From: Lysinibacillus pakistanensis
Lineage (GTDB): Bacteria > Bacillota > Bacilli > Bacillales_A > Planococcaceae
Length of the DNA stretch: 64,000 nt
Direction: 5' to 3'
Assembly: GCF_030123245.1 (NCBI RefSeq)
Contig: NZ_CP126101.1
Coordinates: 4,772,501-4,836,500 of the forward strand
Positions within the stretch are counted from its first letter, which is position 1; each line of letters opens with the position of its first letter. Position numbers and translations under genes: made by a program. Under the pieces are notes generated by a model, which saw only the letters and a program-made list of their open reading frames with translations, was not told where the DNA came from and did not search any database. Positions 10,901 through 16,466 of this stretch are shown in pieces.

Positions 10901-11788
10901 TTATTTTAAAAGTACAGGGTCAAATAACCAATCTCTAGGTCCAAAGTTTTTATCCTTCTCGCCTCTTACCTCACGAGAAATATTGTTTTTAATAATAATT
11001 TCTCTGAACTTTCTACTAAACAAAGTTTTTCGGTACAAATATCTGCCATCATGACTCCACTCTGCTGAGTAGAATACATCACCTGTCAGACCTTTCAAGT
11101 CTTCATTCTTGTATATATCAGGGCCATTAATAACACCACTTAATCCACATCGACATGGCGGTTGCTCCGTTGCAAAATATAATTTCACTCTTTCATTACT
11201 ACATTGGGGCAATACTTGTGTGGGTATAATTTGAAATGCCTTTTGCTTACCTTCCTCTGTCCCCTGATGAATTACCTCAAGAAGCTCATAACCTTGAATG
11301 TCCTCCTGCTCCATTAATGCTACTAATTCCTGTGAAGCTATCCAATAACCGCTCACGTGTACAAGATGGCGATCTTTCATTTCTGTTGTATCAATAACAA
11401 TAGGTGAAAGTTGCTCTTTTTCCATTAGCCCACAATGTTGACAATAAGTACTTATGGAAAATAGAGTTCCTTTATCATCTACAAACATATCAGGTGAATT
11501 GCCTGTTGAATTTAACGTAAACAATGGTGCTTGCTCATATTCACTATCTGAAAAATCAAAGTAAAAACGTTCTCCAATAGAAACAATCCCTAATTCGCGC
11601 TCCAAAGATTTATATAATGCTGCTACTTGTTCATATGTTACTTCTTCATTTAATGTAAAAATTGGATTAAATGATGCCTTTAAATTTCTTTTTCTAATTT
11701 CAGGCGCACCGATAAATATTCCATAGCGATTATAAACTTTAATGACTTGATCTTGATTAGATTCATCTATAAGAAAATAAATTTTCAA
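10901..11788 (-). CDS. Uncharacterised 295-aa protein with Cys clusters
   Basis: I do not recognise this family. It is a soluble protein without a signal peptide or membrane helix. A CQHC pair at residues 116-119 and later cysteines at 196, 212 and 214 (CRCG) could bind a metal. The start appears to be TTG at 11788 with a weak ribosome site. It is the first sizeable gene downstream of the outward ComA-type operator-promoter at 11969-12032, with about 170 bases of leader. It is therefore a candidate quorum-controlled gene. Its role is unknown. Confidence 0.7.
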   Translation of the reverse strand: MKIYFLIDESNQDQVIKVYNRYGIFIGAPEIRKRNLKASFNPIFTLNEEVTYEQVAALYKSLERELGIVSIGERFYFDFSDSEYEQAPLFTLNSTGNSPDMFVDDKGTLFSISTYCQHCGLMEKEQLSPIVIDTTEMKDRHLVHVSGYWIASQELVALMEQEDIQGYELLEVIHQGTEEGKQKAFQIIPTQVLPQCSNERVKLYFATEQPPCRCGLSGVINGPDIYKNEDLKGLTGDVFYSAEWSHDGRYLYRKTLFSRKFREIIIKNNISREVRGEKDKNFGPRDWLFDPVLLK

Positions 11789-11828
11789 GTTCTACTTTCA
11801 AAATACACGCCTACCTTTATATAAAGTT

Positions 11829-11968: not shown

Positions 11969-12032
11969 ACTTAAGCGTACCAGTACTTATACCGCCATTT
12001 CAATGTTAGGTTTACGCCAATTTTATGGCGGT
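11969..12032 (-). promoter_or_regulatory. Left outward tripartite ComA-type operator and promoter
   Basis: Read on the minus strand, CGCCA (12026-12030) and TGGCG (12015-12019) form a palindrome with a 6-base spacer. A third TGGCG (11993-11997) follows exactly 17 bases later and overlaps a -35-like TGGCGG. After 17 more bases comes TTAAGT (11969-11974) as -10. The same layout recurs at 16406-16466. The palindrome plus a third element resembles the tripartite ComA site known from B. subtilis, although the half-site sequence differs. Binding by this ComA is inferred. Confidence 0.6.
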
Positions 12033-12065
12033 CTTTAATCAAAATTTTGGCGTGATTTGGCGTAT

Positions 12066-12097
12066 ATATAAAAAACACCGCCATTTTTTGGCGGTGT
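12066..12097 (-). terminator. Hairpin that may be both comA terminator and operator
   Basis: A perfect 9-bp inverted repeat (ACACCGCCA 12075-12083 with TGGCGGTGT 12089-12097) is followed on the minus strand by a T run and TATATA. It lies 140 bases after the comA stop, so it can end the comQXPA transcript. Its arms are also the CGCCA/TGGCG half-sites found in the operators. Confidence 0.65.
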
Positions 12098-12236
12098 CAA
12101 AAGAAATATATAGGCATTTAGTATTGTTAATAAGGAAATTTTACCTAAGTTAATATATGGGATTTTAAAACTACCTAATGTCTCCCTTTTTATTGAAATA
12201 TATACCAGTTCCATTTTATTATAACACATAGTTGCA

Positions 12237-12860
12237 CTAGAGTAAATTCATTCTTTCAGCAAGATTTACAGCCTCCGTACGTGAGTCAACATTTAGCAAA
12301 GAAAACAACTGTGTTAAATATCTTTCTGTTGTTCGCTGAGGAATATTTAGCTCAATTGCTATCGCCTTATTCGTATGTCCCTCGGCAATTAATCTTAAAA
12401 TTTTCTTTTCTTTTTCATTTAAATGAATATCAAGCTTAGCGTCTTGCAATTTAAATCTATTATCGAGAAAGTCTAAGAAATTTTGAGGTAAAACAATTTC
12501 TCCATTAGCAATAGCGCGTACAGTCCGTAATATTTGTTCCTTGGAAGCTGTTTTCGCCAAAATTCCTTCTATTTTTCTTTCTAAGATAAGCGGATAATAA
12601 TCCGTAATATCATCACCTGTATAAAGAATAATTGAAGCTTTTGACTGAATAGCTTTAATGTTACGGGCTAAATTTATACCATTTTCTAATGGCATATTTA
12701 TATCTATCAAATAAATATCATAGGGGTTATTTCTAATTCTCTGGATAACATTTGTTGCATCGCATTCTGTATCAACGATAATGTCTTCGTTTTCTTGAAA
12801 TAGATTTTTTGTTCCCTCTAACACAATAGGGTGATCATCCACTATGAGCATCGTAATCAA
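12237..12860 (-). CDS. comA: ComA-type response regulator
   Basis: NarL/LuxR-class response regulator and last gene of the comQXPA cassette. The receiver domain (about 1-120) has the acidic VDDHP pair, the phosphoacceptor Asp in YLIDINMP, Thr in LYTGDD and Lys in LAKTASKE. The C-terminal LuxR HTH (about 145-205) has HLNEKEKKILRLIAEGHTNKAIA. Phosphorylated by ComP, it should bind the CGCCA/TGGCG operators nearby. The probable start is TTG 12860 with AGGA 10 bases upstream; GTG 12869 is too close to that site. It overlaps comP, implying coupling. Confidence 0.9.
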   Translation of the reverse strand: MITMLIVDDHPIVLEGTKNLFQENEDIIVDTECDATNVIQRIRNNPYDIYLIDINMPLENGINLARNIKAIQSKASIILYTGDDITDYYPLILERKIEGILAKTASKEQILRTVRAIANGEIVLPQNFLDFLDNRFKLQDAKLDIHLNEKEKKILRLIAEGHTNKAIAIELNIPQRTTERYLTQLFSLLNVDSRTEAVNLAERMNLL

Positions 12861-15141
12861 GTGTGTCACTTCCTTCTTTTACTGTAATTCTAATCGACAT
12901 CCCTTCATTAATTTGCGAATCAATATAAAATTGCCCGTTAAAGGCTTTTACACGCTCCTGCATACCACGAATCCCCATTGATTCTGCAATAATAATATCA
13001 TCAACATTGCAGCCAACACCATCATCTTTGTAAAAAATTTCAAATCCATCATCAGTCTCTTGAAGATGTATTTCAACCGTTCTAGCGTAGGAATGTTTTA
13101 AAGCATTATTGAGCAATTCCTGAAAGAGTCGATAGATCATTAAGTTCATACGTTCATCCTCTAGGTAAAGGCGATCTATCGTATAAAGTAACATAAAATT
13201 AGCTCTCTCTGTTACTTTTCGAATCAGCTTCTCTAAAGCTGCATTTAATCCTAACGTATCAAGTAATGGAGGCTTCAAATTTTCACAATAGGTTCTTAAA
13301 TCATGTAAGGAAGCAACCATCTGCTTATGAATATTTGCAAGTTTTTCTTGAATTTCTGCCGTGTTCTTTGCATTGACAAGAGCATCAACCTCTCGAGCAA
13401 TATGCAGCTGCTCTTGCAAATTGGTATCATGTAATTCCTGTGCCAATTGATATTTTTCTTCTTCAAAGCGTAGCCAAAGTAGTTTGTTTAACCAAGGTAA
13501 ATGACTATCGTCTGCTTGCTTCATATGCTTTAATTCCTCTAACAGTTCTTCCACCATCTTTGTATTTTCAATAAAATTATTAACATAAAGCAGGAGCAAT
13601 TCTAGCCATAAAAGCTCTTCTTCTTTTAAATGAATCGAATTATTATGCCCCAACACTAAGGCTCTTTTACAATGAGCATCTTGATGGAGAAAGGCTATGT
13701 AGACTTTGTCAATTTTTCGGATCTCTCCCAATTTTAAATCCTCTATAACTATAGGATTAAACGAAAGCCTTTTTCCCTCAGCCGTTGAAGTAAATTGATG
13801 GATACCATAGTCATAGGTTAGTACAAATACATCCTCTAGCTCAAGATGCAGCGAAACCTCTTGCGCAAATTTCTTTAATAGTTCATCTATTTTAATAGTT
13901 TTACCAATTCGATCTACCGCAGTATATAGCTGATGTATGTAATCACCTTTTGTTGAAAATAGGATTTTTCGTTTTCGATAATCAACCTTTTCTTTTATGT
14001 AAAAAAGTACAACTAAAGATACAAAGGTAAAGAATGAAACACCTGATACGACAGCCATCGTTAAGTATTTACCTGCAATCCAATATAAGCCAACTGTAAA
14101 CCACACAGTAAACAATAATGAAAAAATCACATAATAACGGAGTCTTGTAATATGATATTCAATATCAAATAATCGTTCAGCTAGCTGTGTAAAAATAAAA
14201 CTAAAAGGAATTAATAATAAAAATAGAGCACTAATTTCAGCTGAAAGAATGTATCGATGAAATAAGATGTTAGGGAATGCATATAGAAATAGGAATGGCA
14301 GAAAAGGAATCATAATACTATTCAGCAACATCTTCAACTGAGGCGATTTATATTTGAAATAGCTTAGCAATAATATACTAAGTATGATAATTAGGAAAAT
14401 GAAGAAAATAGCTAATACAACATTAGAAAGTAAATTATGAGAAGATGGATATATAATGCCAATACAGCCCAAAATCATGGCTATCACGGGTAGTAAATAG
14501 AATAATTTAATATTGTTAGAAAGCAACCAGTTCGTTTTTAAAAATGTATAATAATTCCTTAAAAAGTGTAGTAATAACACTAGGCATAACAACATGCTTC
14601 CACGGTTAATGATAATCCCAGCAGAATTCAATCTTCCCGAAGCTCCACTACTAACGTATGCTATAGAAACTGTGAGCATAAAAAGAATAAGTAGATTTAT
14701 AAGTTTTGTATTTTTTTGTTTAAAATAAAGGTAAGTAGTGATAATTAAAGTTATAAAATAATAACAAGCAGGCATCACCAATAGATAGTAAAATTGCTGA
14801 GGGATATCAAAATGATGTATCCTTACATTTACTTTCTCCCCATTCTGTTTAATGATCGTTAAATCATGCGCAGATAATATTGTAGATAAATATTTAACAT
14901 TTTCCAAATCTTCAATCGGTGTATCATTAACATTTACTACAATATCACCTGTAGATATATTTTGATCCATTGCCCATTCTTTGTAATAGAAATCAGTGAT
15001 TACCCATTGTCCATCCTCTTCCTTAAGCCCTATATTCAAAAAAGGCCCGCTATAATTCACATATAGCAAAAAAAGACCAATTGCTAAATAGAGACTTATA
15101 GCGCGCCAAAAAATCCTACCTGATAATAATTTTAGTTCCAA
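12835..15141 (-). CDS. comP: ComP-type pheromone receptor histidine kinase
   Basis: A 768-aa membrane kinase, almost the same length as B. subtilis ComP. TM1 (about 13-28) is followed by an external PDZ-like segment (about 35-110, STGDIVVNVNDTPIEDL). About seven more helices follow (to about 385), then a cytoplasmic region. The HisKA_3 box contains ELHDTNLQEQL with His 571, and the ATPase has N box LLNNALKHS and G box DDGVGC. It should sense processed ComX and phosphorylate ComA. The start is TTG 15141 with GAGG 7 bases upstream, inside the end of comX. The sensor half is the variable part of such proteins. Confidence 0.93.
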   Translation of the reverse strand: MELKLLSGRIFWRAISLYLAIGLFLLYVNYSGPFLNIGLKEEDGQWVITDFYYKEWAMDQNISTGDIVVNVNDTPIEDLENVKYLSTILSAHDLTIIKQNGEKVNVRIHHFDIPQQFYYLLVMPACYYFITLIITTYLYFKQKNTKLINLLILFMLTVSIAYVSSGASGRLNSAGIIINRGSMLLCLVLLLHFLRNYYTFLKTNWLLSNNIKLFYLLPVIAMILGCIGIIYPSSHNLLSNVVLAIFFIFLIIILSILLLSYFKYKSPQLKMLLNSIMIPFLPFLFLYAFPNILFHRYILSAEISALFLLLIPFSFIFTQLAERLFDIEYHITRLRYYVIFSLLFTVWFTVGLYWIAGKYLTMAVVSGVSFFTFVSLVVLFYIKEKVDYRKRKILFSTKGDYIHQLYTAVDRIGKTIKIDELLKKFAQEVSLHLELEDVFVLTYDYGIHQFTSTAEGKRLSFNPIVIEDLKLGEIRKIDKVYIAFLHQDAHCKRALVLGHNNSIHLKEEELLWLELLLLYVNNFIENTKMVEELLEELKHMKQADDSHLPWLNKLLWLRFEEEKYQLAQELHDTNLQEQLHIAREVDALVNAKNTAEIQEKLANIHKQMVASLHDLRTYCENLKPPLLDTLGLNAALEKLIRKVTERANFMLLYTIDRLYLEDERMNLMIYRLFQELLNNALKHSYARTVEIHLQETDDGFEIFYKDDGVGCNVDDIIIAESMGIRGMQERVKAFNGQFYIDSQINEGMSIRITVKEGSDTLDYDAHSG

Positions 15142-15290
15142 ATTCCGCCCTCTAAATCAATTTCATTATTAAATGCATCTATAATGGCTTTTTGTTCCAC
15201 ATCTGAAATTCCAATCAATGAGGCTTTTTGTTCCTTTAATAGTGTAACTAGGGCTGGGTTTTGTTCTAGATACTGAATTACGTTCATCAT
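15132..15290 (-). CDS. comX: ComX pheromone precursor
   Basis: A 52-codon gene between comQ and comP. The precursor starts MMNVIQYLEQNPAL and continues through LLKEQKASLIGIS, the conserved ComX leader pattern. It ends in GGIWN, giving a Trp at residue 51, the residue that ComQ prenylates in this family. AGGAG lies 8 bases before the ATG-ATG pair and overlaps the comQ stop region. The last codons overlap the comP TTG start, so all three genes are translationally linked. The mature peptide should be a short C-terminal piece carrying a modified Trp. Confidence 0.93.
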   Translation of the reverse strand: MMNVIQYLEQNPALVTLLKEQKASLIGISDVEQKAIIDAFNNEIDLEGGIWN

Positions 15291-15302
15291 AATAATCTCT
15301 CC

Positions 15303-16205
15303 TCATTTCATTAGTTTTTTTAGGTAATCTTTACCTACTTCTTTTATAGCTACATTTTCAAGATAGCCCAATGCTTTAAACTTATAGACATTTTTAATGG
15401 TAATGGCATAACGTATTGCACCACCATTTGTCAACTCGTTTTCTGTAGCATTATTATCCAAAACTGCAACTATATCATCATTATAATAGTTTTTTACAGA
15501 TTTTGAAACATCATTTTTTTGTGATAAAAGATAAATAATAGGCAATGAGTATCTTTTATTTAGCAAATCATTTTTCGGGCCCCAAGTTTTTAAACCCTGA
15601 ATATCATTTTTAATTTGTTGAATAATGCCTATGTATTTACTATATTCCTTCACCTGAGAAGAGATTTCACCTTTTGCAAGCACTTCCCCAATTAGGCAAC
15701 TTAGAGCTGTTAATGAACCTGATTTTTGTTCAATCATTTGTATATAGGACTGCTCATCTCTACAGTTATTGAGTAAATCAAGCTGCTGTCCGTTAATGCT
15801 GCCTAATGCGTACTCCTCAAGAATTTGAATAGCCTTATTTTTGTGTTCAAATGAGGTTTCACGTATTATTTTAGAAGCCATCACTAGCATAGCCAATGCA
15901 ACATTTAATGATAACTCAGGTGTTTTACTCCAGCTATAGTCTGAATCCTTATCTTGCAAATCATCTATAATATCAAATGACAAAATAAGAAGCTCAATAG
16001 CCGCGGCGACTTTATAAATATCCTTATCTAAACGCTCTGTAAATGCCTCGTAATGTAAAATACAGAGTCTCCCAAATGAATAGCCTACCGTTCTTTTTTC
16101 CTCTTTAAAGCTTTTTAGCATCGATTTTAAATCATAGCCCAACATAGTCTCGTTTTCCAAAATAATGTCCAATGATTCATTAATATGTTCATCAAGACCC
16201 TTCAA
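15303..16205 (-). CDS. comQ: ComQ isoprenyl transferase for ComX
   Basis: A 300-aa polyprenyl-synthetase-fold enzyme. The first Asp-rich motif appears as FDIIDDLQDKDSD (near 75-87) and a second Asp site as NDIQGLKTWGPKND. ComQ enzymes prenylate the C-terminal Trp of ComX and are needed for its processing and release. The start is TTG 16205 after a GGGGG run. It is the first gene of the comQ-comX-comP-comA transcript, with comX starting 12 bases after its stop. A housekeeping prenyl synthase is unlikely given these neighbours. Confidence 0.92.
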   Translation of the reverse strand: MKGLDEHINESLDIILENETMLGYDLKSMLKSFKEEKRTVGYSFGRLCILHYEAFTERLDKDIYKVAAAIELLILSFDIIDDLQDKDSDYSWSKTPELSLNVALAMLVMASKIIRETSFEHKNKAIQILEEYALGSINGQQLDLLNNCRDEQSYIQMIEQKSGSLTALSCLIGEVLAKGEISSQVKEYSKYIGIIQQIKNDIQGLKTWGPKNDLLNKRYSLPIIYLLSQKNDVSKSVKNYYNDDIVAVLDNNATENELTNGGAIRYAITIKNVYKFKALGYLENVAIKEVGKDYLKKLMK

Positions 16206-16238
16206 TAGTCCCTTCCCCCTTTAAATATATTAATAAAT

Positions 16239-16267
16239 ATTATACATTTTAATGGGAAATAATACTA
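16239..16267 (-). promoter_or_regulatory. Predicted comQ promoter
   Basis: A consensus -10 TATAAT (16239-16244, minus strand) lies 34 bases before the comQ TTG. The -35 position 17 bases upstream (TAGTAT) is poor, as expected for an activated or weak promoter. The palindrome at 16318-16338 lies about 50 bases further upstream. Confidence 0.45.
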
Positions 16268-16317
16268 CTCACTTTTATTTTTTTAGGAATATTTACCATA
16301 TTTTATTTAAACGTAAT

Positions 16318-16338
16318 TACCGCCAAAAATTGGCGGTA
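16318..16338. promoter_or_regulatory. Perfect operator palindrome upstream of comQ
   Basis: TACCGCCA and TGGCGGTA form an 8-bp inverted repeat around the spacer AAAAT. It has the same core and 5-base spacing as the other com-flanking sites, is not followed by a gene end, and lies about 113 bases upstream of comQ. It may allow autoregulation by ComA. Confidence 0.55.
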
Positions 16339-16405
16339 TTCATAGACATCACGCCATTTTTTTGTTAAGAATTAGTAAAAAAAGTGGCGGTGTTATATAA
16401 CCGAC

Positions 16406-16466
16406 CGCCATTTTTTGGCGTAAACTCACCATTGAAATGGCGTCCTTACTGATGTTACGCTTAAAT
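16406..16466 (+). promoter_or_regulatory. Right outward tripartite ComA-type operator and promoter
   Basis: CGCCA (16406-16410) and TGGCG (16416-16420) have a 5-base T spacer. A third TGGCG (16438-16442) follows 17 bases later within the -35-like TGGCGT, and TTAAAT (16461-16466) follows after 17 bases as -10. It matches the left outward site in architecture and in the linker ATTGAAA before the third element. It points to the 218-aa unknown gene at 16564. Confidence 0.6.

Follow-up and report, generated by a model that had tools for sequence, protein, structure and literature searches.

Conserved, probably ComA-dependent operator-promoters on both flanks of the Lysinibacillus comQXPA cassette

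The com cassette and its two flanks

Here, we analysed the outer flanks of a comQXPA quorum-sensing cassette in a 64,000-nucleotide stretch of DNA (G000:C1:4772501-4836500; hereafter, the window) from a 5.25 Mb Lysinibacillus-type genome. The cassette is complete: comQ, comX, comP and comA, the four genes by which a ComQXPA system is recognised, adjoin one another on the minus strand (Table 1), and the ComX precursor ends in GGIWN, with the Trp near the C-terminus that the accessible part of PMC4008528 gives as a feature of such pheromones. The helix-turn-helix (HTH) domain of ComA has B. subtilis ComA as its best PDB match and contains QRTTERYLTQLF, which is also present in all 16 relatives included in an alignment of ComA tails (16 of the 18 named relatives described below; L021 and L024 were left out). 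The nearest named relatives of the window ComA are likewise from Lysinibacillus.

Both outer flanks of the cassette carry outward-facing CGCCA-N5/6-TGGCG palindromes upstream of promoters, and the genes behind these promoters lead away from the cassette on either side. Each flank comprises a distal and a promoter-proximal palindrome together with further half-sites, on the left (comA) side as well as on the right (comQ) side. The window holds 4 palindromes against 0.01 expected, a count reached in 0 of 100 shuffles, and a genome-wide scan found 6 palindromes in the whole 5.25 Mb, 4 of them here, compared with 1 for a reversed-pattern control. The tripartite pattern, in which a palindrome is followed by a third TGGCG, occurs 3 times in the window versus 0 in 200 dinucleotide shuffles; the third occurrence runs inward, from 12015-12030 to 12048, so that the pattern alone is no mark of a promoter.

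A first-pass annotation of this DNA had described, on each flank, the palindrome (the proximal one; the distal copies and the additional half-sites had escaped it), exactly 17 bases, the third TGGCG preceded by a conserved ATTGAAA linker, another 17 bases, and a -10 element reading TTAAAT or TTAAGT. The palindromes, the first 17-nt distance (to 11997-11993 on the minus strand and 16438-16442 on the plus strand) and the linker are indeed present on both sides. The second spacing, however, measures 18, and the proposed -10 had to be abandoned because that hexamer varies among relatives, whereas TTGAAA and an extended -10 ending just before the hexamer are kept. The three-element site survives on the comQ side, where the third TGGCG is found in 16/18 loci, but not on the comA side, where only the window and a sister genome have it (1 of the 19 loci formed by the window and its 18 relatives, 2 of the 20 examined in all); the mean pairwise identity of this element is 0.93 and 0.72, respectively.

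Table 1. Features of the com cassette and its flanks (window coordinates; fractions refer to the window and its named Lysinibacillus relatives)
Feature	Coordinates	Strand	Remarks
Left target gene, 295 aa	10901..11788	-	no known family; uncertain start codon (in relatives apparently 12 nt further upstream)
Left -10, TACGCT, TGG-extended	11974..11979	-	TACGCT in 18/19 loci, TACCCT in L022; TG three bases upstream in 19/19
Left third TGGCG, in spacer immediately 3' of -35	11993..11997	-	1/19 loci plus sister genome G021; not conserved
Left -35, TTGAAA	11998..12003	-	19/19; constant 11 nt from proximal palindrome, 18 nt to -10
Left proximal palindrome P2, CGCCA-N6-TGGCG	12015..12030	.	half-site columns 0.99 mean pairwise identity
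Left direct repeat, TGGCG-N5-TGGCG on +	12048..12062	.	half-sites at 12048 and 12058; conserved alignment block; second half-site altered in L012
Left distal palindrome P1	12079..12093	.	doubles as stem of an intrinsic terminator-like site for comA; pattern scan, alignment, terminator scan
comA	12237..12869	-	response regulator, LuxR-type HTH; PF00072, PF00196
comP	12835..15141	-	membrane histidine kinase; HisKA_3, HATPase_c
comX	15132..15290	-	pheromone precursor; PF05952, 45.7 bits vs cut-off 25
comQ	15303..16205	-	isoprenyl transferase; PF00348
Right distal palindrome P1	16321..16335	.	pattern scan, alignment, genus scan
Right single half-sites, CGCCA 16352-16356 and TGGCG 16385-16389	16352..16389	.	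stretch shorter in L009, L010
Right proximal palindrome P2, CGCCA-N5-TGGCG	16406..16420	.	one arm mismatched in L015
Right -35, TTGAAA	16432..16437	+	18/18
Right third TGGCG, in spacer immediately 3' of -35	16438..16442	+	16/18
Right -10, TACGCT, TGT-extended	16456..16461	+	TACGCT in 17/18, TAGGAT in L021
Right target gene, 221 aa	16555..17220	+	no known family; start probably ATG 16564, as in most homologs

Conservation of sites and promoters in the genus

ComA relatives in named genomes amount to 58 loci, of which 18 are from Lysinibacillus (L007-L024); these loci and our numbered genomes, 32 of them from the genus, share species and are not independent sets. On the comA side, the proximal palindrome is followed after 11 nt by TTGAAA and, another 18 nt on, by a TG-preceded -10 in 19/19 loci (the window and its 18 relatives), and the same arrangement is found on the comQ side in 18/18, L023 being without such a side. 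Counted over both sides, it is present in 37/37 flanks, with TACGCT in 35 of them. With gaps set aside, the mean pairwise identity reaches 0.99 (left) and 0.98 (right) in the half-site columns, compared with 0.73 and 0.66 between the sites and 0.67 and 0.50 outside them. The two palindromes lie 61.5-64.5 bp apart on the left, centre to centre (18 loci with two exact palindromes; ~6 helix turns), and 83-85.5 bp (14 loci) or 31-31.5 bp (2 loci) on the right (~8 and ~3 turns).

A two-palindrome array pattern matches 31 of the 32 genus genomes, with 138 matches on both strands against 3 for the reversed-pattern control, and comX as well as an orthologue of the window ComA are found in all 32. Outside the genus, the array pattern occurs in 84/229 genomes versus 89/229 for the control (160 matches vs 104), and all 14 non-genus arrays among the matches listed contain G or C within the spacer of the palindrome; we take these matches to be background. 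Nor was the tripartite pattern present in the fetched DNA of any of the 40 non-Lysinibacillus ComA loci, one of which (L031) carried an isolated palindrome.

Each flank aligns with the other as its inverted copy (local score 136 vs a maximum of 87 in 200 mononucleotide shuffles), and this alignment, along with the repeated palindromes, would fit terminal inverted repeats of a mobile com cassette. We nevertheless regard such an origin as very improbable: the named relatives share the gene neighbourhood of the cassette to the extent that their contigs cover it, conservation is concentrated in the half-sites and promoter elements, and arrays remote from com precede other genes. Furthermore, no transposase was recognised by eye in the surrounding list of open reading frames, in which no search aimed at transposases was made. 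Equally improbable is the possibility that the palindromes act as RNA hairpins, that is, terminators or attenuators, rather than as DNA operators. In a loose scan, 3 of the 4 palindromes look terminator-like, and the left distal one is directly followed by TTTT in the direction of comA; the other two, however, have weak tails (ATTACGTTTA and GTCTTTAATC), one lying between the right array and comQ and the other facing the end of comA. Moreover, the direct repeats and single half-sites are conserved as well, and the proximal palindrome precedes the promoter at a constant distance.

Matches to the left target gene adjoin comA in 18/18 named relatives, and matches to the right target gene adjoin the array in 16/18. 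A promoter of this kind is followed in G009 and G014 by another gene, of 125 aa, in the right slot; thus, this slot can change its cargo. Neither flanking protein matched a family at the thresholds used, their AlphaFold models are of insufficient quality for further use (mean pLDDT 65.4 and 50.5), and the homologs assigned to a named organism are hypothetical or uncharacterized proteins of Lysinibacillus. The start region of the left gene (11785-11802) apparently holds one extra base relative to the other genomes, judging from the alignment and the protein lengths, and the start codon is accordingly shifted.

We also considered whether the com operon's own promoter has a ComA site at a fixed position, and rejected this candidate because the spacing varies: a -10-like TATAAT, TATACT or TATAAA, taken as the com promoter, lies 73-79 from the com-side exact palindrome in 14/18 loci (L013 read as 76) and 67, 91, 178 or 255 from it in the others, with several loci holding more than one candidate -10.

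Remote promoters and a second half-site code

Arrays with the same grammar are also found far from com in several genomes, where they precede genes for secreted-type proteins, so that the self-contained switch envisaged in the first-pass annotation is not supported. A promoter match was obtained in 19 of 22 remote loci, which were hand-picked from the matches listed, include several mutual orthologs and were searched with a shape that presupposed a promoter; two further matches (G010:C1:2396573 and G031:C10:19915) were left out as chance-like. Among the 19 matches, the element based 11 nt before the -35 is TGGCG in 14, TTTCG in 4 (L101, L139, L141 and L208) and neither in 1 (L202); the promoter spacer is 18 in 17 of them and 17 in L136 and L203, and TG stands ahead of the -10 in 18.

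Many remote promoters, for example those of L134, L137 and L142, have ACTCGAG just 3' of the -10, followed in several cases by a CTATAG-type inverted repeat. A promoter pattern that includes ACTCGAG occurs at 19 places in 15 of the 32 genus genomes (control, 0). At least 4 half-sites lie within 170 bp upstream in 13 of the 19, and a single one in another; the remaining 5, which belong to a transporter-like gene, lack half-sites, and 3 of these carry a TTTCG palindrome instead. In the genome of the window, L197 (G000:C1:4313459) is a transporter-like gene, EamA-type by eye, with a TTGAAA-N18-TGATAGGAT-ACTCGAG promoter and no TGGCG sites.

Several of the remote target proteins start with what, by eye, resembles a signal peptide. 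Twelve distinct targets were scanned in one or both family libraries, and two scored above the curated cut-off: a JUQZ/BLB8-family protein (L142, 41.9 bits vs 40) and a choloylglycine hydrolase (L138), the promoter of which did not match the search shape. Below the cut-off, and as leads only, come similarities to EntV-like proteins (L131), Ntox35 (L134) and DUF4258 (L137 and L145).

The TTTCG half-site is associated with a second regulator pair. The genome of the window encodes comP2-comA2 (L183, G000:C1:2493000-2501500), with no match to comQ or comX adjoining, and a CGAAA-N7-TTTCG palindrome lies upstream of comP2 in 13/13 genomes examined (the genome of the window and 12 hand-picked ones); a second palindrome there has an altered right arm in 2 of the 13 (L227 and L228). 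The two half-sites are combined, with a TGGCG cluster in the distal and a CGAAA-N-TTTCG palindrome in the proximal position, in L260 (from the genome of the window), L251, L252 and L262, and L141 resembles these promoters, with a weaker left arm. The own-genome case (L101/L260, G000:C1:2864042-2864158) lies upstream of a gene for a 107-aa secreted-type protein. A generic TTTCG promoter pattern is not enriched in the genus (34 matches vs 46 in the summed control), so that the case for combined promoters rests on the aligned subset; among the generic matches, only those in which TTTCGGAA precedes the promoter look genuine.

Further com-type genes are present in the genome of the window. L098 (G000:C1:2293000-2307000) and L099 (G000:C1:3328000-3342000) are extra comX-comP pairs, 60-64% identical to those of the cassette, without an adjoining comQ or full comA; they may provide input to the one complete com set. 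L100 (G000:C1:1020000-1029000) is a diverged set ordered comP, comA, comQ, in which the comQ match is split into two pieces. At the other full com loci (L176, L177 and L178), operators could not be made out, except that comQ of L178 is preceded by a site of the TTTCG type.

We tentatively suggest, as a possibility short of the likely, a two-code ComA network: ComA1 would read TGGCG and its paralog ComA2 TTTCG, the mixed promoters of secreted-type effectors would apply AND- or OR-type logic to two sensor inputs, and the orphan comX-comP pairs would contribute further signals, all of them dependent on one shared ComQ and one shared ComA1.

ComA as the likely regulator

The two flanks very probably represent operator-promoters through which ComA of the Lysinibacillus ComQXPA cassette acts. 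The first-pass annotation, which had suggested that ComA drives genes on both flanks, is in this respect supported: selected operator-promoters face both flanking genes, and the genus-wide tie to the com locus, the likeness of the HTH domain and a half-site change in G005 make ComA the best candidate binder. By analogy with known ComQXPA systems, ComQ would modify ComX, extracellular ComX would activate ComP, and ComP would phosphorylate ComA. Dimers of ComA would then bind the CGCCA-N5/6-TGGCG palindromes, and the proximal palindrome, with its centre at about -55 relative to the presumed start (around 11967 on the left and 16468 on the right), would recruit RNA polymerase to TTGAAA-N18 and the extended -10 (TGnTACGCT); the distal palindrome and the single half-sites, on roughly the same helix face, would assist through cooperative binding. 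What the sequences show directly is the sites, their strict conservation and spacing, their linkage to com and the recurrence of the grammar ahead of remote secreted-type genes; ComA as the binder, activation by its binding, and cooperation are inferred.

Several observations speak against ComA control. G002 keeps its arrays intact, although its comA contains two stop codons, and G005 has no match to the array pattern. The 14.6 kb of L. piscis (L023) retain the left array with its gene, as well as comA and comQ, but contain no match to comX, comP, the right gene or the right-hand palindrome; this array kept without local comX and comP is not decisive because a comX lies elsewhere in what is apparently the same genome (G016). 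A generic sigma-70 scan lists neither flank promoter, since TACGCT matches TATAAT at only 3/6 bases, and the promoter call therefore rests on conservation. The helical phasing of the palindromes is suggestive only: over six hand-chosen spacing classes, R is 0.51, 0.81 and 0.91 at 10, 10.5 and 11 bp, such that the value at 10.5 bp is reached by ~1% of random sets and the fit is better at 11 bp and worse at 10 bp. Finally, other LuxR-type regulators, including ComA paralogs, are encoded in these genomes.

Given this multiplicity of ComA-like regulators per genome, the distance of the remote sites from com and the intact arrays of G002, the sites might belong to another regulator, for example, the ComA paralog of comP2-comA2, with the adjacency to com being incidental. 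We consider this alternative unlikely because comP2-comA2 has its own conserved CGAAA/TTTCG array, TGGCG arrays border the com locus across the genus, and a ComA that has diverged comes with a different half-site. The latter case is G005, with a ComA that is 71% identical. At the same place, this genome has four CGACA-N7-TGTC(G/A) palindromes, spaced by 22, 22 and 23 bp in turn; the fourth lies 11 nt before TTGAAA-N18-TAGGCT, with TG upstream of the -10, and is followed by the left-gene orthologue. The recognition-helix region reads QRTVERY in G005, compared with QRTTERY in the window and 16 relatives. This pairing of a diverged ComA with an altered half-site, at one and the same promoter, is suggestive and, as a single case, falls short of proof.

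ComA-dependent control in Lysinibacillus would resemble that of B. subtilis in kind but not in layout, which qualifies the likeness to the three-element B. subtilis site proposed in the first-pass annotation. According to the accessible part of PMC4797271, B. subtilis ComA promoters have an inverted repeat, then a direct repeat beside a poorly conserved -35, and an inverted repeat at the proximal position cuts expression more than 10-fold. Shared features are the ComA-type regulator, inverted and direct repeats, a cluster of extra sites upstream, as at the B. subtilis pel promoter, and an extended -10 with TG (19/19 and 18/18 on the Lysinibacillus flanks). By contrast, the half-site is TGGCG with a spacer of 5/6 in Lysinibacillus and TTGCGG with a spacer of 4 in B. 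subtilis, and the layout is reversed, with the inverted repeat proximal and the direct repeats upstream in Lysinibacillus, whereas in B. subtilis the direct repeat adjoins the -35. If TGGCG is equated with TTGCGG, the Lysinibacillus inverted repeat would be everted. Given the proximal inverted repeat and the well-conserved -35 (TTGAAA), the mode of activation may differ from that in B. subtilis.

Dogsa et al. 2014 (PMC4008528) have reported complete comQXPA loci in Lysinibacillus, like the one analysed here, including two each in L. sphaericus C3-41 and L. fusiformis ZC1; neither operators nor target genes or half-site codes are described in its accessible part. Among the open-licence papers listed on Lysinibacillus comQXPA, ComX/ComP or ComA, or on ComA binding and bacteriocins in comQXPA systems, no title or abstract start concerns these operators, nor are they mentioned in the accessible parts of PMC8895600 and PMC11166776. 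Control by ComQXPA and ComA is already known; the operator code and its layout are what has changed here.

These results provide a readable operator code for a quorum-sensing system best known from B. subtilis. In G005, the regulator half-site differs (TGGCG to TGTCG) while the promoter stayed put, so that operator evolution becomes directly testable. The predicted regulon would consist of secreted-type proteins, in part bacteriocin- or toxin-like, in this genus.

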